Assembly: GCA_943788875.1 (NCBI GenBank)
Contig: CALSSA010000002.1
Coordinates: 62,001 to 126,000, forward strand
DNA from: an uncultured Pseudomonadales bacterium
GTDB lineage: Bacteria > Pseudomonadota > Gammaproteobacteria > Pseudomonadales > Porticoccaceae
Direction of reading: 5' to 3'
Length of the DNA: 64,000 nucleotides
Shown here: positions 7,665 to 62,699 of the stretch, in pieces
How the letters are laid out: every line of letters starts with the position of its first letter
Position numbering within the stretch: the first letter of the stretch is position 1
The notes under the pieces: generated by a model
The model's database searches: none
The model's input: the letters and a program-made list of their open reading frames with translations, nothing else
Told to the model about the DNA's origin: nothing
Made by a program: the position numbers and the translations under genes

Positions 7665-8140
7665 ATGTCGGCGTAGTTGCCGCGATAAAATATGAGTGGC
7701 CGATGACCTTTATCGGTAAACTCAAGCACGCGACCGACCAGAATAACATGGTCACCACCATCGTACTGATGCTCAATATTGCACTGAAAGCAGCTGCTGT
7801 AATGGGTCAGCAGAGGCACACCTGAAAGCCCTTCACTGGTTTCCAGTCCTGCAAATCGATCCGCACCAGTTTTAGCAAAGCGATTGGAGATATCCATCTG
7901 GTCATTCGCCAGAACATGAATGGCAAATGCATCCGCAGCAATAAAGTCCTCGAAGCAGTTAGTATCTCTACCAATACTCCACAGCACCAGCGCCGGATCC
8001 AGAGACACGGAATTAAAGCTGTTGGCGGTCATACCGACCTTTTGGCCATTGCTGCCCAGAGTGGTAATTACAGTTACGCCCGTGGCGAAACTGCCCAGAG
8101 CATTGCGGAGATCAATTGTGCTGAAGTTGGAATTAGACAT
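7661..8140 (-). CDS. Flavin reductase-domain protein (FMN-binding split barrel)
   Basis: MSNSNFSTIDLRNALGSFATGVTVITT...GMTANSFNSVSLDPALVLWSI...HYDGGDHVILVGRV is typical of the flavin reductase-like family. Start placed at the internal Met (8140), not 8239. Confidence 0.88.
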   Translation of the reverse strand: MSNSNFSTIDLRNALGSFATGVTVITTLGSNGQKVGMTANSFNSVSLDPALVLWSIGRDTNCFEDFIAADAFAIHVLANDQMDISNRFAKTGADRFAGLETSEGLSGVPLLTHYSSCFQCNIEHQYDGGDHVILVGRVLEFTDKGHRPLIFYRGNYADI

Positions 8141-8283
8141 TATTTTTTTGTTCGATATGGTCGGATCATATTGGCCGGCAATGATGGGCGCTGAGCCGCT
8201 AAGTTGCAAGTTCTGTAAGCTAAAAATCCTCAAACCCACCTGATATTTGTATCGCCAATAACAGGCAGGCTGAGTCTTGACTA

Positions 8284-25963: not shown

Positions 25964-28900
25964 TTGTCCGAGCCATCAGAGAAACCCGAGCCCTCAGCCA
26001 ATAAAGAGCCCTCAGCGGGAAAAGAGCCCTCAGCCAAAAAAGAGCCCTCAGCGGGAAAAGAGCCCTCAGCCAAAAAAGAGCCCTCAGCGGGAAAAGAGCC
26101 CTCAGCCAATAAAGAGCCCTCAGCCAATAAAAAGCAAGCGCCACCCCGCACTGCCAATCAATTCGAGGCGCTAAAAAAGCAGCTCACAGAAACTGTTGCC
26201 AGCAGCGATCTCCATCGCCTCAGCCGACAACTGCAAGATATGCAGCGCCATGCCAAGGGCAACAACGACATCAACCAGAACTGGCAAAAATGGTTGGCGT
26301 CCAAAGACAAGTCGGAACAGCTAGTCAGCGCAAGGCGAGACAGCCTGCCACAGATTAACTACCCAGACCTGCCCGTCAGTGCCAGATCAGAAGAGATCAT
26401 CGAGCTTATCCAAAATAATCAGGTGGTGGTAATCGCTGGCGAAACAGGCTCTGGCAAAACCACCCAGCTGCCCAAGATATGCCTGCAAGCAGGTCGTGGG
26501 GTCAAAGGTATGATTGGCCACACTCAGCCCCGCCGCATAGCCGCCCGCACCGTCGCCAACCGCATCGCCGAAGAACTAAAAACGCCATTGGGCGAAACCG
26601 TCGGCTATCAGGTGCGCTTCTCTGACCAGAGCTCAGGAAATACCAGAATTAAACTGATGACCGACGGCATTTTGCTGGCCGAGATTCAGTACGACCGCTT
26701 TTTAAGCAAATATGACACATTAATTATTGATGAAGCCCACGAGCGCAGCCTCAATATTGATTTCCTAATGGGCTACCTCAAGAACCTGCTTGCCCAACGC
26801 CCAGATCTAAAACTGATTATCACCTCAGCTACCATTGATGTTGACAAGTTCTCCAATCATTTTAATGGCGCACCAGTGGTCGAAGTCTCAGGCAGAACCT
26901 ACCCAGTGGATATTATTTACGCTGGCATAGAGGATCTGGACAGCGACCGAAACCAGATGATTATCGACTGCCTGCGAGATATCGAAGCCAACCAAAAAGC
27001 TGGAGACGTACTGGTGTTTTTAAGTGGCGAGCGTGAGATTCGCGAAGCCAATCTCGCCATCAAACGAGCTCAGTTGCCTCACACCGAAATTGTGCCTCTA
27101 TACGCTAGACTCAGTCTTGCCGAGCAGAGCAAAATATTCTCCGCCCACAAAGGTCGGCGGGTAGTGCTGAGTACCAACGTCGCCGAAACCTCCTTGACGG
27201 TGCCCGGCATTGGCTATGTGATCGACACTGGTCGCGCGCGGTTATCGCGCTATAGTTTTCGCACTAAGGTACAGCGCCTACCCATAGAGCCTATATCCCA
27301 AGCCAGCGCCAACCAGCGGGCCGGGCGATGTGGCCGGGTTAGTAATGGCATTTGCTATCGACTGTACAGCGAAGAAGATTTTAACAACCGTCCTGCCTTT
27401 ACCGACCCGGAAATCGTGCGCACCAATTTAGCCGCGGTCATCTTGCAGATGCTACATCTGCGCATTGGTGATATTCGCAGCTTCCCCTTTGTTGACCCCC
27501 CAGACAACCGCATGATCAGCGACGGCTTTAAGCTGCTCGAAGAACTGCAGGCCGTCAATAGTAGTGGCAAGCTAAGTCCACTGGGTAAAAAGCTGGTTTC
27601 AGTGCCCCTCGACCCAAGATTTGCGCGCATGATTATGCAGGCAGCCCAGACTGGTTCTCTGGCCGAGGTTATGATTATTACTTCAGGGCTGAGCATTCAG
27701 GATCCCCGTGAGCGACCCGCCGACAAGCAGCAGGCAGCCGATCAGGCCCATACCCAGTGGCGCGACCCGGACTCAGACTTTATGTCGCTTTTAAACCTGT
27801 GGCGTCATTTCGAGGCCAAGCGTCAAGAGCTATCTGGCAACCAGTACAGCAAATACTGCCGTTCCAACTACGTGTCATTTCTGCGTATGAAAGAATGGCG
27901 CGACCTGCATCATCAGGTGCACAGTGCCTGTCGTGCGCTCAAGTTTAAAGAGAACCAAAAGCCCGCAGAATATGCCGCTATTCATCAGGCACTACTGTCA
28001 GGCCTACTCGGGCAGGTGGGTATTCGCGAAGACAAATGGGAATTTGCCGGCACCAGAAACCGCAAGTTTTTTATCTTCCCCGGCTCTGGTCTGAGCAAAA
28101 AGCCACCCAAATGGGTGATGGCCGGCTCATTGATGGAAACGGCTAAACAGTACGCCCTCAATGTCGCCAAAATAGACTCAGACTGGCTAGCACCGCTGGC
28201 CGCCCATCTGGTGAAAAAGACCTACAGCGCACCGTTTTACCAAATGAAATCCGGGCAGGTGATTGCCAAAGAGCGGCAGACCTTATTTGGCCTGAGTATT
28301 GTCGAAGGCAAAAATACCGTCTACGGTAATATAGCCCCAGTGGAAGCGCGGCAGATATTTATCCAACAGGCATTAGTCGAAGAGGGCTATCGCGGCAAAG
28401 GCAGCTTCTACCAGAATAATCAGCGTCTGGTCGAAGAGCTTCAGGCCCTGGAGGATCGCTTTCGTCGTCGGGATCTGCTGGCCGAGCAAAAGGTGATTTA
28501 CAGCTTCTATGACGAGCGGCTCCCAGAGGATATTTATAACCTGCCCGCCTTTGAAAAGTGGCGTAAGCAGGCCGAGCAGGGCAATGCCAAACTGCTGCAT
28601 ATCAACAAAGAGTCACTGTTGTTAAGAGGGTTATCCGCCGACGAAGAAGCTCAGTTCCCCCAATCAGTGCAATGTGATGATATGGAATTTCAACTTAGCT
28701 ACTGCTTTCAGCCCGGACACAGCGAAGATGGGGTCAGTGCCATTATCCCATTGCCCTTGTTGCATCAGCTACCGCGTTATTATTTTGACTGGCTGGTGCC
28801 TGGTATGCTGAGAGATAAATGCATCGCCCTAGTCAAGAGCTTGCCCAAGCAGACCAGACGTCACTTTGTGCCAGTGCCAGACTTTGTAGATAAAGTGTTG

Positions 28901-30055
28901 TCGCAAGTTAAAGCTCAGGATCGGCCATTAACTGAAATCCTTGGCCAACAGCTAAAACGCCACACCGGCATCAGCATCGATGAGCAGGACTGGAACGCCC
29001 AGTCCCTTGACCAATGGTACCTGATGAACTTTATCCTGCAGGACGAGGCTGGCAAAACCATCGCCATGGCCCGCAGTCTCGACCAGCTGCAGCGCGACTT
29101 TAAGCAACAGATCAGCGCTGGGTTAGAACAGGCCTCCGACAGCGGTATTGCCAGGCAGGGCATTGTTGAATGGGACTTTGATGAGCTGCCTGAAGAAGTC
29201 GCCCTACAGCGAGGAAAAATAACCATCAAAGCCTGGCCAGCATTAAAAGACTGCGGCGACTCAGTGGCCATAGAAGTAATGGACAATCCATTGACCGCGG
29301 ATAATGTCAGCCGGGCAGGGCAGCTCAGATTAGCGCTGCTCAAAGGCCGCGAGCAGCAGCGATACCTGAGCAAAAATCTACTGCGCGGCAATGATCTGGC
29401 ACTCAAAGCCGCCGCCATTGGCAGCAGGCAGGACCTTGTCGATGCATTAATCAGCGCCAGCTTTCAGGAAGCTATTTTTGCCGATAGCGGACTGGTTCGA
29501 GATCAGCATAGCTTTGACCAAAGCTATGCAGCCGGTATCGGCAATGTGGTTGGCATTGCCCAGCAGCATGCCGATAATATTCTGTCAGTGCTGCCCCAGT
29601 TACACCAGAGTCAGAAGCAGCTGCGGGCATTAGGCCTGTCCGCGGTTTATGCCAAGCCGGATATTGCCAATCAAATTGGCTGGTTATTCTCTCCAGCGAC
29701 GCTCAGGGCAATCTCCGTCAGCCATAGCAGTCAGTACCCAAGGCTGGTGCGGGGCATCATCATTCGCCTGGAAAAACTCGCCTCTCAGGTTGGCAAAGAC
29801 CGCCAGCATATTGCCGATATAGAGGCGCTGGTGCAGCCGATTAATGATATCCAGGAGCAGGCACTGTCTCGACAACCACTTTCCCAAAAGTTGACCGACG
29901 AACTGATTGACTTTCAATGGCTGATACAGGAATACCGCATATCATTGTTTGCCCAGCAACTAAAAACCCGAGTGCCGGTATCCGCCAAGCGTCTGGACAA
30001 AAAATGGCTAGAGATCAGCGACCAGCTTCGGCGGTTCTTGGTCAATAGCCATTAG
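25964..30055 (+). CDS. hrpA: ATP-dependent RNA helicase HrpA (DEAH) with low-complexity N-terminal extension
   Basis: GETGSGKTTQLPKICLQAGRG, DEAHERSLNIDFLMGYLK, SATIDVDKFSNHF, QRAGRCGRVSNGICYRLY. Predicted TTG start; the true start is uncertain. Confidence 0.93.
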   Translation: MSEPSEKPEPSANKEPSAGKEPSAKKEPSAGKEPSAKKEPSAGKEPSANKEPSANKKQAPPRTANQFEALKKQLTETVASSDLHRLSRQLQDMQRHAKGNNDINQNWQKWLASKDKSEQLVSARRDSLPQINYPDLPVSARSEEIIELIQNNQVVVIAGETGSGKTTQLPKICLQAGRGVKGMIGHTQPRRIAARTVANRIAEELKTPLGETVGYQVRFSDQSSGNTRIKLMTDGILLAEIQYDRFLSKYDTLIIDEAHERSLNIDFLMGYLKNLLAQRPDLKLIITSATIDVDKFSNHFNGAPVVEVSGRTYPVDIIYAGIEDLDSDRNQMIIDCLRDIEANQKAGDVLVFLSGEREIREANLAIKRAQLPHTEIVPLYARLSLAEQSKIFSAHKGRRVVLSTNVAETSLTVPGIGYVIDTGRARLSRYSFRTKVQRLPIEPISQASANQRAGRCGRVSNGICYRLYSEEDFNNRPAFTDPEIVRTNLAAVILQMLHLRIGDIRSFPFVDPPDNRMISDGFKLLEELQAVNSSGKLSPLGKKLVSVPLDPRFARMIMQAAQTGSLAEVMIITSGLSIQDPRERPADKQQAADQAHTQWRDPDSDFMSLLNLWRHFEAKRQELSGNQYSKYCRSNYVSFLRMKEWRDLHHQVHSACRALKFKENQKPAEYAAIHQALLSGLLGQVGIREDKWEFAGTRNRKFFIFPGSGLSKKPPKWVMAGSLMETAKQYALNVAKIDSDWLAPLAAHLVKKTYSAPFYQMKSGQVIAKERQTLFGLSIVEGKNTVYGNIAPVEARQIFIQQALVEEGYRGKGSFYQNNQRLVEELQALEDRFRRRDLLAEQKVIYSFYDERLPEDIYNLPAFEKWRKQAEQGNAKLLHINKESLLLRGLSADEEAQFPQSVQCDDMEFQLSYCFQPGHSEDGVSAIIPLPLLHQLPRYYFDWLVPGMLRDKCIALVKSLPKQTRRHFVPVPDFVDKVLSQVKAQDRPLTEILGQQLKRHTGISIDEQDWNAQSLDQWYLMNFILQDEAGKTIAMARSLDQLQRDFKQQISAGLEQASDSGIARQGIVEWDFDELPEEVALQRGKITIKAWPALKDCGDSVAIEVMDNPLTADNVSRAGQLRLALLKGREQQRYLSKNLLRGNDLALKAAAIGSRQDLVDALISASFQEAIFADSGLVRDQHSFDQSYAAGIGNVVGIAQQHADNILSVLPQLHQSQKQLRALGLSAVYAKPDIANQIGWLFSPATLRAISVSHSSQYPRLVRGIIIRLEKLASQVGKDRQHIADIEALVQPINDIQEQALSRQPLSQKLTDELIDFQWLIQEYRISLFAQQLKTRVPVSAKRLDKKWLEISDQLRRFLVNSH
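25988..26131 (+). repeat. 8 x 18-bp tandem repeat within the hrpA 5' end (EPSA[N/G/K]K hexapeptide)
   Basis: GAGCCCTCAGC(CAATAAA/GGGAAAA/CAAAAAA) units read in register, encoding EPSANK-EPSAGK-EPSAKK-EPSAGK-EPSAKK-EPSAGK-EPSANK-EPSANK. Confidence 0.9.
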
Positions 30056-30186
30056 TGACTAACATCTAAAGGAGAGAAAAATATCACAGAATGAAACTTC
30101 CTCAGGCTGCACTAGTCAGAAAAGCATCCTGAAACCAAACTGGCCAGGAAAAATGGAAGAAACTACACTCTCAAGGAGAACATCAA

Positions 30187-30552
30187 ATGTCCAAACAAAT
30201 CATTAAACCATTATCAGCAGCTGTAGGTATTGCCTTTGCAGCCACCATGGCACTGGCTCCAGCAGCCTCAGCAACAGCAAATCCTTTTCAGGCCGACCAA
30301 CTTTCATCTGGGTATAACCTTGCCGATGGCCATGCCGAAGGCAAATGCGGTGAAGGCAAATGTGGCGGTGAAAAGGCCAAAGATGAAGGCAAGTGCGGCG
30401 AAGGAAAATGCGGCGGTGACAAAGCCAAAGATGAAGGCAAATGTGGTGAAGGAAAGTGCGGTGGTGATAAAGCTGCTGGTGAAGGTAAGTGTGGCGGCGA
30501 AAAAGCTGACGATGAAGGCAAATGCGGTGAGGGTAAATGTGGCGGCGCCTAA
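30187..30552 (+). CDS. hvfA: HvfA-like secreted EGKCG-repeat RiPP precursor
   Basis: Sec signal peptide with AxA site, conserved-looking ANPFQADQLSSGYNLAD segment, then nine EGKCG motifs (HAEGKCGEGKCGGEKAKDEGKCGEGKCGG...); next to DUF692 and DUF2063 genes. Confidence 0.88.
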   Translation: MSKQIIKPLSAAVGIAFAATMALAPAASATANPFQADQLSSGYNLADGHAEGKCGEGKCGGEKAKDEGKCGEGKCGGDKAKDEGKCGEGKCGGDKAAGEGKCGGEKADDEGKCGEGKCGGA

Positions 30553-30579
30553 GTCGTTAGCTCACAGTTGTTAAATAAT

Positions 30580-31413
30580 ATGACCAGCAAATACCCGGTT
30601 AGTGGTGCAGGTCTAGGATTGAGGCGGGCTCTTTTGGGCCCGCTTTCTTCATTGTCCACCGAGCATGTCCAGTTTATGGAAGTGGCACCAGAAAACTGGA
30701 TTAATGTCGGTGGTCGCTACGGCAAAGCCTTTCGCGAATACACCGAAAAATTCCCCTTTGTTCTCCATGGTCTGTCCCTATCCATCGGCTCACCAGCGCC
30801 ACTGGACTGGAACCTGCTAAAGCAGATCAAAGGCTTTATGGCGGAGCACTCAATCCGCTTTTACACCGAACATCTCAGTTACTGCAGTGACCATGGTCAT
30901 CTTTACGACCTAATGCCAATACCTTTTACCCCCGAAGCCGTCGACTATGTCGCTGATCGCATCCTGCAGATTCAGGACTTTCTAGGGCAGCGTATCGCCA
31001 TGGAAAATGTCTCCTACTACGCCGCACCCCAGCAAGAGATGTCAGAGATAGAATTTACCAATGCAGTACTGGAAAAAGCCGACTGCGGCCTGCTGCTAGA
31101 CGTCAACAATATCCACGTTAACAGCATCAACCATGGTTACGACGCCGAACAATTTCTCGCCGCGCTGCCAGGCCACAGAGTGGTCTATGGTCATATCGCT
31201 GGCCATTACAACGAAGCAGAAGACCTGCGAGTCGACACCCATGGCGCCGATGTAATAGAGCCAGTTTGGGGCCTGCTGGAGTGCGCCTATCAACAGTTCG
31301 GCGTATTTCCCACATTATTAGAGCGAGACTTTAATATCCCCCCGGTAGATGAGCTGATGCTCGAAGTTGACCGCATCAAAGCCATGCAGACAGCGAAGCA
31401 GGCATATGCCTAA
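30580..31413 (+). CDS. hvfB: DUF692 multinuclear non-heme iron-dependent oxidase (MNIO), HvfB-like
   Basis: [13 protein letters not shown]...[10 protein letters not shown]...[17 protein letters not shown]...YTEHLSYC...[10 protein letters not shown]...[18 protein letters not shown]...VVYGHIAGH...DTHGADV...[10 protein letters not shown] retain the family's His/Asp/Glu/Asn metal-ligand positions. Start ATG 30580. Confidence 0.92.
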
Positions 31414-32185
31414 AAGCAGGCCATCGTTCCAGCAGACTCAGGGCGCCTTTGCCGCCCATATCCGTCATCCACAGCTGCATCAGGCCCCAGAGCATATTGA
31501 AGATCGCCGCCTGGAAATCTACCGCAACCTGTTCTTCAACAATATCGAATCCTTTTTAGCCTCAGGTTTCCCCATCCTTAAATCGCTAATGGTTGGAAAT
31601 AAGGGGGGTGAGGAAAACTGGACCAACATGGTGCGCGACTTTATCCACAGGCACCAGAGCCACAGCCCCTATTTCTTGCAAATCAGCGAAGAATTCCTCG
31701 CCTACCTGCAGCAAGAATATCAGCCCAGGCCCAATGATCCAGGGTTTATGCTAGAGCTAGCCCATTATGAATGGGTCGAATTGGCACTCGATGTATCGAC
31801 TGCAGAAATTCCCACAGATATCCAGCAGCAGGGCAATGTACTGGACGACCATCCCATCCCGTCTCCCACCGCCTGGCGATTTATTTATCAGTACCCAGTG
31901 CATCGCATTGGCTCCGAGTTCCAGCCTCAAGAGCCCGGGCCTGAAGTCACGGCATTAATTGTTTATCGCAGCACAGCGCTGCAGATAGGTTTTATGGAGT
32001 CCAACCCCGTCACCCTGCGTCTACTGGAAATACTTGAAAGCGAGCAGATCAGTGGCAGAGCCGCTATAATTAAATTAGCCACAGAGATTGAGCACCCAGA
32101 GCCCGGTAAGCTATTTGAATTTGGCACAGACCTGCTGTTGGAACTTAAAAACCAAGAGATTATCTGCGGCTTTCGCCGCATTTGA
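31406..32185 (+). CDS. hvfC: DUF2063-family RiPP maturation partner protein, HvfC-like
   Basis: [16 protein letters not shown]...[29 protein letters not shown]...HYEWVELAL. Start ATG 31406 overlaps the stop of the DUF692 gene by 8 nt. Confidence 0.88.
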
Positions 32186-32300: not shown

Positions 32301-33011
32301 ATGAATAAAATAAACCAACTATTTCTAATACTAGTAGCCAGCATCGGCCTAGGGTCGTTCGCCGTCGCCAGTGAGTCCGACAATATCGACCCCTATGAAA
32401 ATTTCAATCGGGCGACCAATAGCTTTAACGAAGTTCTAGATGACTACTTGGCCCGGCCCGCAGCCAAAATCTATACCAACACTATGCCCGACCCACTGGA
32501 AAAAGGCATTGTTAACCTGTTTCGTAATCTAGGTGAAATTACCAACGTAATCAATGACATACTGCAGGGAAAGTTCGCTCAGGCAGCCAATGATTCTGGT
32601 CGGTTCCTGATTAACTCCACCGTTGGCGTGGGCGGACTTTTCGATGTTGCCCAGCGCGCAGGGTTACCTCGAAATGAGGGTGAAGACTTTGGCCAGACCC
32701 TCGCCGTGTGGGGCGTTTCGGAAGGCCCTTACCTAATGTTGCCCTTTATTGGCCCATCGACATTGAGGGATGCACCCTCCAAATTCGTCGATAATTTTAC
32801 AACGCCGTATTCCCATCTGGAAGATGAATCAGCCCGCAATTCAGTTAGAGGCGTGAGCCTGCTGTCCACCAGAGCCGAATTACTGGACTTGGAGAATGTT
32901 ATCTCTGGCGACAGCTACTTGTTTGTTAGAGATGTGTACTTGCAGCGCAGAGATTACTTGGTAAATGACGGCGCCGTCGAAGATGATTTTGGAGATTTGG
33001 ACGATTACTAA
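32301..33011 (+). CDS. mlaA: MlaA (VacJ)-family phospholipid transport protein
   Basis: DPYENFNRATNSFNEVLDDYLARPAAKIYTNTMPDPLEKGIVNLFRNLGEITNVINDILQGK...GVGGLFDVA...EDFGQTLAVWGVSEGPYLMLPFIGPSTLRDA. Confidence 0.94.
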   Translation: MNKINQLFLILVASIGLGSFAVASESDNIDPYENFNRATNSFNEVLDDYLARPAAKIYTNTMPDPLEKGIVNLFRNLGEITNVINDILQGKFAQAANDSGRFLINSTVGVGGLFDVAQRAGLPRNEGEDFGQTLAVWGVSEGPYLMLPFIGPSTLRDAPSKFVDNFTTPYSHLEDESARNSVRGVSLLSTRAELLDLENVISGDSYLFVRDVYLQRRDYLVNDGAVEDDFGDLDDY

Positions 33012-33085: not shown

Positions 33086-34270
33086 ATGAGTAAACTTGAA
33101 GGTCCAGTTATCCTAGTCGGTGATAACGCGGTTGGGTTAAAGCACTTACAAGCAGACTTCCAAGCAGTTGGAAGTAAGACCCTGACTGCAGCGGATATAG
33201 GGTCCATTGACAGCGCCTGTCACGACCCCCTCAGCCAGCCCGTGGTTCTACTCGCAGAAAACAACCCCATCAACAGTGCAGAAGATATAGCCAAGCTGCG
33301 CCAGCTCTGCGAAGACTACCTGATTATAGTCTGCCTCAAAGATGCCGACAGCAACCAGACTGCTGACTTTTTTCGCCTTGGTGTCGCCGATATACTCACG
33401 CCAGATGGCAGCGCCAAAGCACTAGAACAGACCCTAGAACGGGTCGGGGCCCTGGCAGCGACTCGTCAGCGGGTCAGCGAATATAGTGCCGAACTGGAAA
33501 AAACCAATGTCGAACTACAAGAGAGCCTCCGCCTGCTAAAGCAAGACCAGTTAGCCGGTCTTGAAGTACAAAAGAGTCTAATGCCCGAGAGCCCCTTAGC
33601 CTTTGGCGACTATGAAATATCCCACTCCATCACCCCGTCCCTGTACCTGAGTGGCGACTTTGTCGGCTACAACTTTGTGCTCGACCGCTATTTGCTTTTT
33701 TACTTTGCAGACGTCTCAGGCCATGGTGCCTCATCCGCCTTCGTTACCGTATTGCTGCGCTTTATGATCGGCCGCGTGATTCGCCGCCATATGCTCGAAC
33801 ATGACTATGTGGCTCTGGCCCAGGCACCGGAGGGGCTGGTGGAATATATCAACAATCAGCTTCTGGCCACCGGCCTTGGCAAACATCTGACTATAGTGGC
33901 AGGCTCACTGGATACAGAGACCCGCCAGCTGCGTTATGTAGTTGGTGCTCAGCAACCCCAGCCGATACTGATCAGTGACGGCACGGCGACATTCCTGCCC
34001 GGCAAAGGCAAGCCCGCAGGTATATTTGAAGATGCCAGCTGGGTCGTCGAACAGATCCACCTGCCAGAACGCTTCGCACTGGTACTGCTCTCAGATGGCG
34101 TCTACGACCTGGTGCCGGACAGAGAAATTGCCGACAAAGAGCAGACCCTGCTCAAGTACCTGTCTACCAGCTCCGGCAATATAGACCAGCTTAAAGAAGC
34201 CCTGTTTATCGACTATATCGAAGACCCCCAAGACGATATATCCGTGCTGTTGCTAACGGGGGGCATGTAG
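33086..34270 (+). CDS. Fused (degenerate) receiver / SpoIIE-PP2C phosphatase, RssB/HsbR-like
   Basis: N-terminal receiver-like fold; PP2C motifs SGDFVGYN, YFADVSGHGASSAFVTVLL, LVLLSDGVYDL, DDISVLLL. Confidence 0.85.
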   Translation: MSKLEGPVILVGDNAVGLKHLQADFQAVGSKTLTAADIGSIDSACHDPLSQPVVLLAENNPINSAEDIAKLRQLCEDYLIIVCLKDADSNQTADFFRLGVADILTPDGSAKALEQTLERVGALAATRQRVSEYSAELEKTNVELQESLRLLKQDQLAGLEVQKSLMPESPLAFGDYEISHSITPSLYLSGDFVGYNFVLDRYLLFYFADVSGHGASSAFVTVLLRFMIGRVIRRHMLEHDYVALAQAPEGLVEYINNQLLATGLGKHLTIVAGSLDTETRQLRYVVGAQQPQPILISDGTATFLPGKGKPAGIFEDASWVVEQIHLPERFALVLLSDGVYDLVPDREIADKEQTLLKYLSTSSGNIDQLKEALFIDYIEDPQDDISVLLLTGGM

Positions 34271-34756
34271 TTGAGCGAAGGTAAAATACTGGTCTCGGAT
34301 AAAGACGGCAATTACCTGCTTAAGTTTAGCGGTGACGTGAGGGTCAATCTGTGTGGCTCCCTGAACCATCATATGGACGCCATCTTCGGCAGCACAGACG
34401 TCAAACATGTAGTGATCGATATGCTCGACGCCGAATGTGTCGACAGCACCACCCTAGGCCTGATCGCCAAACTGGCACTGCACTGTCGCAAAGAGTACAG
34501 CATTGATATGCAGCTGTTTTGTCAAAATCCCAGCATATTGCGCACCCTCAACTGTATGAGCTTTGACGAGATTATTGAGATCTGCGAAGAAGTGCCAGAT
34601 ATCGACGCCGAGCTGCATGATATTGAATCGGTTAATTCAGATATCGACGAAGTGCGCCGCCAAGTGCTTGAAGCTCACAAGCTTCTCACCCAGCTAAGCC
34701 CCGATAGTAGTAAGGAATTTACCGACCTTATTCGCGCGCTGGAGTCCGGGCGCTAA
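34271..34756 (+). CDS. STAS-domain anti-sigma factor antagonist
   Basis: VRVNLCGSLNHHMDAIFGSTDVKHVVIDMLDAECVDSTTLGLIAKLALHCRK. TTG start directly abuts the upstream stop codon. Confidence 0.85.
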   Translation: MSEGKILVSDKDGNYLLKFSGDVRVNLCGSLNHHMDAIFGSTDVKHVVIDMLDAECVDSTTLGLIAKLALHCRKEYSIDMQLFCQNPSILRTLNCMSFDEIIEICEEVPDIDAELHDIESVNSDIDEVRRQVLEAHKLLTQLSPDSSKEFTDLIRALESGR

Positions 34757-58961: not shown

Positions 58962-61900
58962 ATGTACTCATCAGTAACAGCCAATGCTGGCAGATCCGTC
59001 AGTATGGGCATCAAAAAGCACCTCGGCGTGATTTCTGCGTTGATATTTTCCTTAGTTTTGTCTGCCTGTGGCGGCGGTGGCGGTGGCGGCGATAACCCTG
59101 GCCCTGCAGTGTCAGGAGCGCCAACGCTTTCAGAGGTTAGCATTTCTTCAGGTGAACTCACCACAGTGACCGTGGGAGACAAGGTGACAGTCACAATCTC
59201 TGCTAGCGAGGCGATTCTTGCGCCGTCAGTGATGATTGGTGGTGTTGCTGTTGATCGCGTCGTGGGTTCTGAGAAAAACTGGACCGCTGATCGCGTAATG
59301 CTCGAAACTGATACTGCCGGTGTGCTTTCTCTAAGCGTCTCATTTAGCGATGTTGGCGGTGAGGCGGGTACGACTGTTACTGATACTACTGACGGTTCGG
59401 CAATTACCCTTGAAATCAACAATGAGGGGGGTGCGGTTGTTGATGGCCCGTTTCAGGCTGCTACAGTTTATGCCGACTACAATGGCAACGGAGTTCACGA
59501 TGAAGGTGAGCCCTCAGACCTGACCGATGCCAATGGCGAATATGATCTGGTTAAGACTACTGATGCTCCTGCAGCCTACAACATTGTTGTTGAGATGACT
59601 GCTGATACTATCGATTCAATCTCTGGTGAGAGCTATGCTGATTCAACGCTGAAGTTGAAGGCGCCCAGTGGTGGTGACGTTGTAACCCCCTTGACTACTG
59701 TTCTGGTCGCAGCACAAGCCGCCGATCCTACCTTTACTGCTGAAGACCTTGCCGTTGCAATGGGCTTGCCTGCAGGAATAGATATTGAGACTTACAACCC
59801 GTTTGCGAGCGGCGTGACCGCCAGCGAAGCCCATGCTGTAGAAAAGGTCTTCCAGCAGGTTATGACGGCGACGCTTATTGTATCTGAGGCTATGGAAGGT
59901 GTTGCTGGTATCACTGGCGCTACCCTTTCTGGGGAAGATGCCAGTGCTGCGGCTCTGCTGGCTGTAACCAACATGATAACGGAATCTACTGTCACGGTAG
60001 ACTTTTCTGAGTCTGATCAGATCGCCGAACTCCAGGAAGCAGCCAAAGACGAATTGCTGGCTCAGGGAATTGTTGATGAGGCATCTGCAGATATCGCTGA
60101 CTATGTACTGGCTAGTGCTGCGGACACCGTAACTCAGCTTTCGGTCGCTATTCAGGCTGTGGCTCTATCTGACTTTGGTGAAGCGGCTTCGTCTTCTGTT
60201 TCGCTGCTCAAGCATGACGCTGCAAGTCAGATGGCAGCGCTGGCAACTGCGGCGGCAGATTTCCTAGAAGCTGGATCCACTGATCTTACTCAGTTGGATA
60301 TCTCTGAAATTCTGACCCTCGCTAGCGCTGATGGTGTTGCTGCGATGGTTGAGGAAAACCAGTCAGAGGTTGAGGCTTATTTGTCAACTCTTGGTGGAAC
60401 AGTATTATCTTGGGGCCTTTTTGGAGGCGTCGAGATCGCTGATGGTGGAGTGTTTAATCACCCGGCTTCTGCTGAATCCTGGGGCGGATTCTACAGCGAG
60501 ACTGATATTTTCCCGCTTGCATTCTCCGTGGGCGGTACTGTCACATTTAATGCTGCGCTTCAGGCCGGTAGTGATCCTGTTAGCCTGGTGTTCCAGTTTG
60601 AAGAAGTCGGAGGTGGAAACGCGTCCTACAACTTCCAGACTGAAGGGGTAGTAGTAGATAGCGAAACCGAGGCGACCTATACCGCCCCGATTCCTGCTCA
60701 GGAGGCCAGCTTAACTTATGAGAGTCTAGTTTTGTTTATCAGTGGGCTAGATTCACCAGTGCAGATCTGTAATGTGCAGGTTTCTACTGGTGATACTGTG
60801 GTTGAAGGTATCCCTTGTGATAGCACTAGCGGCGACTCAGGTACTGGCGACGACTCAGGTACTGGCGACGACTCAGGTACTGGCGACGACTCAGGTACTG
60901 GCGACGACTCAGGTACTGGTGACGACTCGGGTACTGGTGACGCCGATGTTCTTACGCTTACGGTAGTAGCACCAGACGCAACAGCTGTAAGACTAACCGG
61001 GCCATGGTGGAGTTGGGCGTCTGATGGAGGCCCAGCGGCTACCGACAACGCGGATGGTACTTGGACTGTTGTATTCGAGGAAATTCCTACAGAAACTATG
61101 GAATATAAGTGGGTGCTTGATGGTGCTCAGGAAGATCTAGTTGCACCGGCCGCTGCTGGAGAATGTACGGCGCTTGTTGATGCTGGACGCGTAAATACTG
61201 ATTACTCTAGTTGGGGTAACAGATATTGGGTTCTAGACTCAGGCCTTAATTTCACTGACTACGCAGGTGCCTGTGCTCCGACAGAGCTGAGGCTCACTGT
61301 TTCAGCACCTGACGCAACAGCGGTAAGGATGACTGGTCCCTGGTGGTCTTGGGCTGCTGATGGTGGTCCGGAAGCTACTGACAATGAAGACGGTACTTGG
61401 ACGGTAACGATTGATCCGATTCCTACAGAGACAATGGAATATAAGTGGGTCATTGATGGCGAACAAGAAGATCTGGTAACACCGGCAGCGGCTGGAGAAT
61501 GTGGTGATCTCATTGACGCTGGGCGCATAGATACTGATTACTCTGGTTGGGGTAACCGATACTGGATTCTTGATTCGGGCGGCTACTTTCTGGAATATGC
61601 AGGAGCCTGTGCTGAGCCTCCTGAGCCTGCTGATCCCACGCCGACTGTTTTGACGTTTAATGTGTCAGCTCCAGATGCGACAGCGGTAAGGATGACTGGT
61701 CCCTGGTGGTCTTGGGCTGCTGATGGTGGTCCGGAAGCTACTGACAATGAAGACGGTACTTGGACGGTAACGATCGATCCGATTCCTACAGAGACAATGG
61801 AATATAAGTGGGTCATTGATGGCGAACAAGAAGATCTGGTAACACCGGCAGCGGCTGGAGAATGTGGTGATCTCATTGACGCTGGGCGCATAGATACTGA

Positions 61901-62699
61901 TTACTCTGGTTGGGGTAACAGATACTGGGTACTGGATTCGGGTTATAGCTTCACCGATTATGCGGGAGCCTGTGCTGAGCCTGCTGATCCCACGCCGACT
62001 GTTTTGACGTTTAATGTGTCAGCTCCAGATGCGACAGCCGTAAGGATGACTGGTCCCTGGTGGTCTTGGGCTGCTGATGGTGGTCCGGAAGCTACTGACA
62101 ATGAAGACGGTACTTGGACGGTAACGATTGATCCGATTCCTACAGAGACAATGGAATATAAGTGGGTCATTGATGGCGAACAAGAAGATCTGGTAACACC
62201 GGCAGCGGCTGGAGAATGTGGTGATCTCATTGACGCTGGGCGCATAGATACTGATTACTCTGGTTGGGGTAACAGATACTGGGTACTGGATTCGGGTTAT
62301 AGCTTCACTGATTATGCGGGAGCCTGTGCTGAGCCTGCTGATCCCACGCCGACTGTTTTGACGTTTAATGTGTCAGCTCCAGATGCGACAGCGGTAAGGA
62401 TGACTGGTCCCTGGTGGTCTTGGGCTGCTGATGGTGGTCCGGAAGCTACTGACAATGAAGACGGTACTTGGACGGTAACGATTGATCCGATTCCTACAGA
62501 GACAATGGAATATAAGTGGGTCATTGATGGTGAACAAGAAGATCTGGTAACACCGGCAGCGGCTGGAGAATGTGGTGATCTCATTGACGCTGGGCGCATA
62601 GATACTGATTACTCTGGTTGGGGTAACAGATACTGGGTACTGGATTCGGGTTATAGCTTCACTGATTATGCGGGAGCCTGTGCTGACACTGCCCCCTAG
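58962..62699 (+). CDS. Large putative surface lipoprotein with tandem Trp-rich carbohydrate-binding-like repeats
   Basis: Lipobox SLVLSACGGGGGGG; Ig-like N-terminal region; DSGTGD linker; five ~118-aa repeats (GPWWSWAADGGPEATDNEDGTWTVTIDPIPTETMEYKWVIDGEQEDL...). Start could instead be 59004. Confidence 0.85.
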   Translation: MYSSVTANAGRSVSMGIKKHLGVISALIFSLVLSACGGGGGGGDNPGPAVSGAPTLSEVSISSGELTTVTVGDKVTVTISASEAILAPSVMIGGVAVDRVVGSEKNWTADRVMLETDTAGVLSLSVSFSDVGGEAGTTVTDTTDGSAITLEINNEGGAVVDGPFQAATVYADYNGNGVHDEGEPSDLTDANGEYDLVKTTDAPAAYNIVVEMTADTIDSISGESYADSTLKLKAPSGGDVVTPLTTVLVAAQAADPTFTAEDLAVAMGLPAGIDIETYNPFASGVTASEAHAVEKVFQQVMTATLIVSEAMEGVAGITGATLSGEDASAAALLAVTNMITESTVTVDFSESDQIAELQEAAKDELLAQGIVDEASADIADYVLASAADTVTQLSVAIQAVALSDFGEAASSSVSLLKHDAASQMAALATAAADFLEAGSTDLTQLDISEILTLASADGVAAMVEENQSEVEAYLSTLGGTVLSWGLFGGVEIADGGVFNHPASAESWGGFYSETDIFPLAFSVGGTVTFNAALQAGSDPVSLVFQFEEVGGGNASYNFQTEGVVVDSETEATYTAPIPAQEASLTYESLVLFISGLDSPVQICNVQVSTGDTVVEGIPCDSTSGDSGTGDDSGTGDDSGTGDDSGTGDDSGTGDDSGTGDADVLTLTVVAPDATAVRLTGPWWSWASDGGPAATDNADGTWTVVFEEIPTETMEYKWVLDGAQEDLVAPAAAGECTALVDAGRVNTDYSSWGNRYWVLDSGLNFTDYAGACAPTELRLTVSAPDATAVRMTGPWWSWAADGGPEATDNEDGTWTVTIDPIPTETMEYKWVIDGEQEDLVTPAAAGECGDLIDAGRIDTDYSGWGNRYWILDSGGYFLEYAGACAEPPEPADPTPTVLTFNVSAPDATAVRMTGPWWSWAADGGPEATDNEDGTWTVTIDPIPTETMEYKWVIDGEQEDLVTPAAAGECGDLIDAGRIDTDYSGWGNRYWVLDSGYSFTDYAGACAEPADPTPTVLTFNVSAPDATAVRMTGPWWSWAADGGPEATDNEDGTWTVTIDPIPTETMEYKWVIDGEQEDLVTPAAAGECGDLIDAGRIDTDYSGWGNRYWVLDSGYSFTDYAGACAEPADPTPTVLTFNVSAPDATAVRMTGPWWSWAADGGPEATDNEDGTWTVTIDPIPTETMEYKWVIDGEQEDLVTPAAAGECGDLIDAGRIDTDYSGWGNRYWVLDSGYSFTDYAGACADTAP
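60834..60941 (+). repeat. 6 x 18-bp tandem repeat encoding a DSGTGD linker
   Basis: GACTCAGGTACTGGCGAC units in register. Confidence 0.92.
60948..62696 (+). repeat. Five in-frame tandem repeats (unit starts 60948, 61287, 61647, 62001, 62355)
   Basis: The last three start 354 bp apart and units 2-5 are nearly identical at DNA level across the ~250-nt core (GCGGTAAGGATGACTGGTCCCTGGTGGTCTTGG...). Confidence 0.95.

Follow-up and report, generated by a model that had tools for sequence, protein, structure and literature searches.

What does a marine bacterium make from three adjoining genes that encode a secreted EGKCG-repeat precursor, an MNIO (DUF692) enzyme and a DUF2063 partner, what switches these genes on, and do they constitute the whole of the pathway? 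We analysed such a locus in a 64,000-nucleotide stretch of DNA (the window) from the genome of an uncultured Porticoccaceae bacterium (2.48 Mb, 14 contigs, 95% complete). In fontiphorin (fonABC), oxazolin (hvfABC) and gonophorin, all products of such loci, the EGKCG cysteines bear 5-thiooxazoles; the name 'captophorin' has been proposed, and >24,000 MNIO-PME1 loci with >20,000 captophorin examples have been counted (PMC13097082), an earlier catalogue having held ~2,000 'Buf_EGKCG' precursors (PMC12452194). Given these numbers the locus cannot be called an unusual system, as the initial annotation had proposed. Four features described below, an unlinked HvfX, a sigma-E-like promoter, a hairpin nested in hvfB and repeated loss of the locus, make it easier to test what the EGKCG captophorins, a very common class, do in the cell.

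An intact hvfABC cluster

The initial annotation had described open reading frames starting at 30187, 30580 and 31406, the last overlapping its neighbour by 8 nt; all three are present, and the overlap between the hvfC ATG and the hvfB stop codon is real (ATGCCTAA). The family searches it had proposed give matches well outside chance expectation and place each product above cut-off in NCBIfam, HvfB against NF003818 (438.2 bits, cut-off 360), HvfC against NF050145 (289.7 bits, cut-off 142) and HvfA against the KCGExKCG repeat domain NF050137 (68.6 bits, cut-off 19.5). Pfam matches are PF05114 for HvfB (341 bits), and PF09836 (89 bits) with NGO1945_C (PF22106, 86 bits) for HvfC, and the closest solved structures are the MNIO 3bww (E=7.5e-75) and the PME1 protein 3dee (E=4e-9), respectively. 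The hvfA product does not reach the narrow full-length equivalog NF050188 (63.7 bits, cut-off 95), which marks the HvfA equivalog and not the EGKCG class, and we therefore call the gene HvfA-like. No other PF05114 gene than hvfB is present in the genome.

Table 1. Coordinates of the locus, its elements and its neighbours in the window
Feature	Position	Strand	Description
hrpA	25964-30055	+	Helicase gene, upstream neighbour outside the pathway; TIGR01967 (1671 bits) and synteny
hvfA promoter	30093-30120	+	Sigma-E/ECF-type, GAAACTT-N15-GTCAGA; conserved in 14/14 SAR92 genomes
hvfA ribosome-binding site	30173-30179	+	AAGGAGA, by sequence inspection; GGAG kept in the genus alignment
hvfA	30187-30552	+	Precursor, 121 aa; signal peptide (by eye), leader, nine EGKCG; ORF and NF050137
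HvfA leader	30280-30324	+	NPFQADQLSSGYNLA, after the signal peptide; near-identical across SAR92
HvfA core	30337-30549	+	Paired EGKCG in units of 16 aa, and one unit with a single motif; 5-thiooxazoles predicted to form at these sites
hvfB	30580-31413	+	MNIO (DUF692) maturase, 277 aa, from ATG; NF003818, PF05114, PDB 3bww
RNA hairpin	30621-30646	+	GGCGGGCTC-TTTT-GGGCCCGCTT, hvfB codons 15-22; conserved
hvfC	31406-32185	+	MNIO partner (PME type 1), 259 aa; DUF2063 and RRE-like C-terminal domain
mlaA	32247-33011	+	Lipoprotein gene, downstream neighbour, context; PF04333 (243 bits) and synteny; possible later start near 32301

Alignment and motif inspection show the residues that matter in characterised relatives to be kept. 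Those forming the substrate gate and catalytic site of FonB, Arg15, Arg16, Asp249 and Phe250 (PMC13097082), are R15, R16, D250 and F251 in the window HvfB, and those essential in Haemophilus influenzae HvfB, N175, D242 and H244 (PMC13419390), have their counterparts in N176, D219 and H221. The precursor has nine cysteines (54, 59, 70, 75, 86, 91, 102, 113 and 118), all within EGKCG repeats, and the repetition is seen in the DNA too, with periods of 48 and 33. A Sec-type signal peptide is clear by eye and kept in relatives. Across the genus the number of precursor cysteines ranges from 4 to 11 while NPFQAD(Q/E)L(S/R)SGY, the leader, hardly varies, and it can be recognised in other families as NPF..xxL..GY; it is probably the recognition sequence for HvfC. 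The HMM matches, the residues of the iron site and substrate gate, the gene order of the operon and the relatives found in synteny agree in pointing to an HvfABC-type system that would modify EGKCG cysteines, as first annotated. On its sequence the locus is an intact EGKCG 'captophorin/oxazolin' hvfABC cluster, ordinary in kind.

The window cluster resembles several characterised systems. Microbulbifer mmrABC has the same three-gene order and EGKCG cassettes, with no DoxX protein reported adjacent, and five to eight cysteines compared with nine here; its product bulbicupramide loses four hydrogens per Cys and binds Cu(I) (PMC12538549). The fonABC locus of Fontimonas thermophila is likewise minimal, with EGKCG repeats and the Arg15/Arg16/Asp/Phe set of Lys-Cys MNIOs, FonA differing in having seven sites (PMC13097082). 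Nontypeable H. influenzae hvfABCX shares HvfB and HvfC equivalogs, a signal peptide (judged by eye in the window precursor) and paired EGKCG motifs, but oxazolin has six modifiable cysteines and belongs to a pathogen, not to a free-living marine bacterium (PMC13419390). Bufferins (BufA DUF2282/Buf2) also combine an MNIO and DUF2063 partner with a secreted precursor and thiooxazoles, the last two being predicted for the window locus, whereas the window precursor has no DUF2282 match (indeed no Pfam match) and its MNIO stays below the BufB cut-off (250.5 bits, cut-off 310).

Methanobactin (mbnABC) is related through the MNIO superfamily and its Cu-binding heterocycles made from Cys, although the heterocycle itself differs and the window locus has no MbnC or MbnA-like precursor. 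Copper is scarce in the open ocean, which would suit a chalkophore, i.e. a modified peptide released like methanobactin to scavenge copper for uptake, as would the Cu(I)-binding heterocycles of characterised relatives (PMC12538549). Such a role is nevertheless very unlikely here, as the locus includes no protease, exporter or TonB receptor, the best match of the MNIO is HvfB, with only 42 bits against MbnB (TIGR04159, cut-off 325), and the precursor, with its apparent Sec signal and many sites, is unlike MbnA.

A conserved genomic site and repeated loss

The closest named relatives of the window HvfB, at 93-79% identity, come from Porticoccaceae and HTCC2207-like marine MAGs, HTCC2207 being a member of SAR92, and this bears out the marine origin first proposed. 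SAR92 genomes have the locus between hrpA and mlaA, and a homologous locus occupies the same site in Microbulbifer sp. NKW57 (L051). The gene upstream is again hrpA in Porticoccus, Pseudomaricurvus, Aestuariicella and Alcanivorax, and mlaA follows directly or after a few genes where the record reaches it. Within the genus a close hvfB is found in 16/36 genomes; in the 16 hvfB-less genomes in which mlaA was found, hrpA adjoins mlaA with no hvfAB between. One of these genus members, G029, has directly after the hrpA stop codon the C-terminal part of hvfC, interrupted by stop codons (L115:976-1410), which by its sequence is a deletion scar. On a tree of hrpA and mlaA from the genus, presence of the locus must change 5 times or more, and well-supported branches force at least 3 of these changes. 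The simplest reading of these sequences is that several SAR92 lineages lost an ancestral locus; the hrpA-mlaA site common to several families and the remnant of hvfC in G029 speak against a recent horizontal gain in SAR92.

Two further observations concern the surroundings. After mlaA the window encodes a SpoIIE-type phosphatase and a STAS-domain protein (33086-34756), perhaps a partner-switch pair, and the phosphatase gene adjoins mlaA even in genomes that have no hvfABC. A genus member without hvfABC encodes a distant MNIO, 31% identical, in a 525-aa open frame (G033:C188:7779-8576).

HvfX is encoded elsewhere in the genome

HvfX, a DoxX-family protein, is present in many but not all loci and is hence not strictly defining. 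In H. influenzae hvfX lies inside the operon (PMC13419390), and the fontiphorin authors themselves raised DoxX as a missing factor (PMC13097082). No hvfX is found beside the window locus, but the same genome encodes, unlinked, a protein well above the HvfX equivalog cut-off (NF050144, 221 bits, cut-off 80; G000:C11:18196-18849), flanked by genes for a MATE-type transporter and a DEAD-box helicase, both named from their translations. The 'compact' locus of the initial annotation is thus incomplete as a description of the system.

The presence of HvfX follows that of the locus. Within the genus it is above cut-off in 16/16 hvfB-positive and 2/20 hvfB-negative genomes, and among 199 genomes of the order in 86/98 HvfC-positive and 4/101 HvfC-negative ones, an association for which the Fisher test treats genomes as independent, ignoring relatedness. 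The two hvfB-negative carriers are G029, with its hvfC remnant, and G032, in which the absence of hvfB is possibly an assembly gap, as this genome is 85% complete and mlaA is missing too. Among the 86 genomes of the order with both HvfX and HvfC, the genes are linked within 5 kb in 33 and unlinked in 53, ten of the latter having hvfX on the same contig as hvfC, 0.2-3 Mb away. HvfX is not strictly required, since 12 HvfC-positive genomes of the order are without it.

We infer that HvfX encoded at a distance acts in the same pathway as hvfABC. Joint loss in streamlined lineages would produce the same association with no role for HvfX in the pathway, and the independent losses are indeed few: co-loss of hvfABC and HvfX within the genus comprises 3 supported independent pairs, too few for a sign test to reach 0.05, and one clade of small genomes is without both. 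We regard joint loss as an improbable explanation, however, because the groups do not differ clearly in genome size (median 2.2 vs 2.0 Mb, p=0.23), which is hence unsupported as a cause of the co-loss, because HvfX is close to hvfC in the 33 linked genomes, and because G029, with its hvfC remnant, still has hvfX. We found no description of a co-inherited, unlinked HvfX in the cited literature on EGKCG loci. If HvfX does act with hvfABC, many 'minimal' three-gene loci would really be four-gene pathways with HvfX elsewhere, and a component may have been missing when copper assays were run in a heterologous host with ABC alone.

A hairpin nested in the hvfB coding sequence

A terminator scan identified a terminator-like hairpin near the start of hvfB in this genome (Table 1). 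Among 16 SAR92 genomes synonymous conservation along hvfB is highest in the 10-codon window at the hairpin (excess synonymous identity 0.36; mean of hvfB windows 0.125, sd 0.064), and this window also has the lowest folding energy of the gene compared with synonymous-codon shuffles (mean z -2.37; all windows -0.07, sd 0.44). The fold recurs with compensated stems in Porticoccus, Alcanivorax, Thiohalobacter and Wenzhouxiangella. In a covariation set of 46 distinct sequences, chosen from 75 found and with negatives included, 82.8% of stem cells pair vs 71.3% in shuffles, and covariation is 0.300 vs 0.115 in shuffles (0/500), structures slid along the alignment giving at most 0.163. Synonymous positions covary, a Gly codon (GGC/GGT) with an Ala/Thr codon and an Arg codon (CGG/CGA) with a Pro/Ser codon; as the Gly and Arg alternatives are synonymous, the hairpin changes there are not explained by the protein.

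The same codons encode the substrate-gating Arg15/Arg16, so protein constraint here is real, and dyad symmetry would suit an operator as well as an RNA. This allows a reading in which the palindrome acts as an operator in the DNA, or simply follows from the encoded LRRALLGPL, and is not an RNA element. We think this unlikely in view of the covariation at synonymous positions, the mean z of about -2.4 against shuffles that keep the protein, the occurrence of exactly one copy of the palindrome in the genome and the behaviour of the hvfA-hvfB spacer. Where the nested hairpin is absent, a strong spacer hairpin is found in 13/28 loci at p<=0.05 (mean z -1.62); where it is present, in 3/43 (mean z 0.04), a difference in z of p=7e-5 with loci treated as unrelated. 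The spacer of Microbulbifer sp. NKW57, for example, has a textbook terminator, AAAAGCCGGGC...GCCCGGCTTTTT, in place of a hairpin nested in hvfB.

An RNA element, the reading we prefer, could work in more than one way. We reject an intrinsic terminator as the sole function, the T-tract being weak or absent in other families, and because it is not conserved termination, 3'-end protection and processing all remain candidates; the hairpin may cause leaky termination in SAR92 alone and serve to process or stabilise mRNA in other families. Lying between the precursor and enzyme genes, it probably limits hvfBC relative to hvfA, and so predicts how cells hold substrate in excess of enzyme. There is no Rfam family match at the hairpin, and we found no description of it in the cited EGKCG-locus literature. 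If the reading is correct, Gammaproteobacteria EGKCG loci have a previously undescribed regulatory RNA, laid over the Arg-Arg gate codons of the MNIO gene, and an intergenic hairpin functionally replaces it where it has been lost. Codon optimisation of hvfB for expression would remove it. A dispersed operator or REP element was also considered, and is ruled out by the single perfect genome copy.

A sigma-E-like promoter and the role of the product

RpoE-type promoters have the elements GGAACTT and TCTGA or TCAAA. Upstream of hvfA a block G(G/A)AACTT-N15-GTC(A/T)GA stands out in an otherwise diverged intergenic region in all of the 14 SAR92 genomes with readable upstream DNA. The pattern matches once in the window, and a looser version matches 0.6% of shuffled upstream regions. 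It precedes hvfA also in Porticoccus (L044, L045, L048) and, in similar form, in Microbulbifer sp. NKW57, and was not found before the gene in Alcanivorax, Pseudoalteromonas and others. A promoter scan found no sigma-70 promoter, and the genome encodes RpoE (312 bits, cut-off 236) together with other ECF-like factors. Consensus match and conservation make the promoter sigma-E-like, and transcription of hvfA is probably driven by a sigma-E/ECF factor. Control by envelope stress would follow as a testable proposal, and the conserved promoter offers, on SAR92, Porticoccus and Microbulbifer loci, a direct handle on what switches the pathway on.

In SAR92 genomes the region upstream of hvfX (L132 ~8095-8200) has a conserved GGAATTTTTT...GCTCTAA block, which may be an ECF promoter of another kind; a single ECF box common to hvfA and hvfX was not found, hvfX having this box of its own.

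We consider it highly probable that the locus, taken as a whole, is an intact EGKCG captophorin pathway with an exported Cu(I)-binding peptide, a sigma-E/ECF promoter, a hairpin and an unlinked HvfX. In this pathway HvfA would be made with a Sec signal peptide and, before or during export, HvfB and the RRE-bearing HvfC would oxidise its nine EGKCG cysteines to 5-thiooxazoles with the loss of four hydrogens each, the exported polypeptide then binding Cu(I) in the cell envelope; both the thiooxazole chemistry and the binding of Cu(I) are probable by analogy with characterised relatives. A sigma-E/ECF factor that senses envelope or thiol/metal stress would drive transcription, the hairpin at the start of hvfB would keep enzyme expression below that of the precursor, and HvfX, a membrane protein supplied from another locus, would join the same pathway. 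The stress trigger, the physiological role and the functions of hairpin and HvfX are proposals. The chances are about even that all three of its more specific parts hold together, i.e. a nested-hairpin regulatory RNA, four-gene pathways with a distant HvfX, and sigma-E-type control in the SAR92/Porticoccus/Microbulbifer branch. If they do, this branch is under sigma-E-type control and not that of a copper sensor.

The copper-buffering role suggested in the initial annotation is not established. In Microbulbifer proteomes MmrA-C went undetected whether or not copper was added, and the authors hesitated to assign a role in copper protection (PMC12538549), which makes a role in the copper response doubtful and which control by envelope stress would fit. 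With the sigma-E-like promoter, the absence of any copper-related gene seen adjoining the locus and the association of such loci with both oxidative and metal stress (PMC13097082), this lends some weight to a product of the same chemistry that is mainly an envelope thiol/redox protectant or a binder of another soft metal, induced by sigma-E-type envelope stress. We hold this to be possible but the less likely role, as Cu binding is common to the characterised products of the class, with Cu(I) bound by fontiphorin, oxazolin and bulbicupramide, and bulbicupramide shows no appreciable binding of Ni, Zn, Mn or Fe (PMC12538549). An exported Cu(I)-binding peptide, perhaps one that buffers copper, remains our preferred reading.

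Repeats elsewhere

An 18-bp minisatellite with a GAGCCCTCAGCnnnnAAA-like unit is very similar in two unlinked helicase genes (window 25988-26135 and L132:10449-10622 on G000:C11). It encodes low-complexity tails, the hrpA N-terminus with its EPSAxK repeats and the C-terminus of the DEAD-box helicase, and the copy in the latter is read in two frames, EPSANK and then SPQRIK. At 60968-62686 the window has a 354-bp tandem repeat of about 4-5 copies, probably a repeat-domain surface protein, with an 18-bp repeat ahead of it at 60825-60942.
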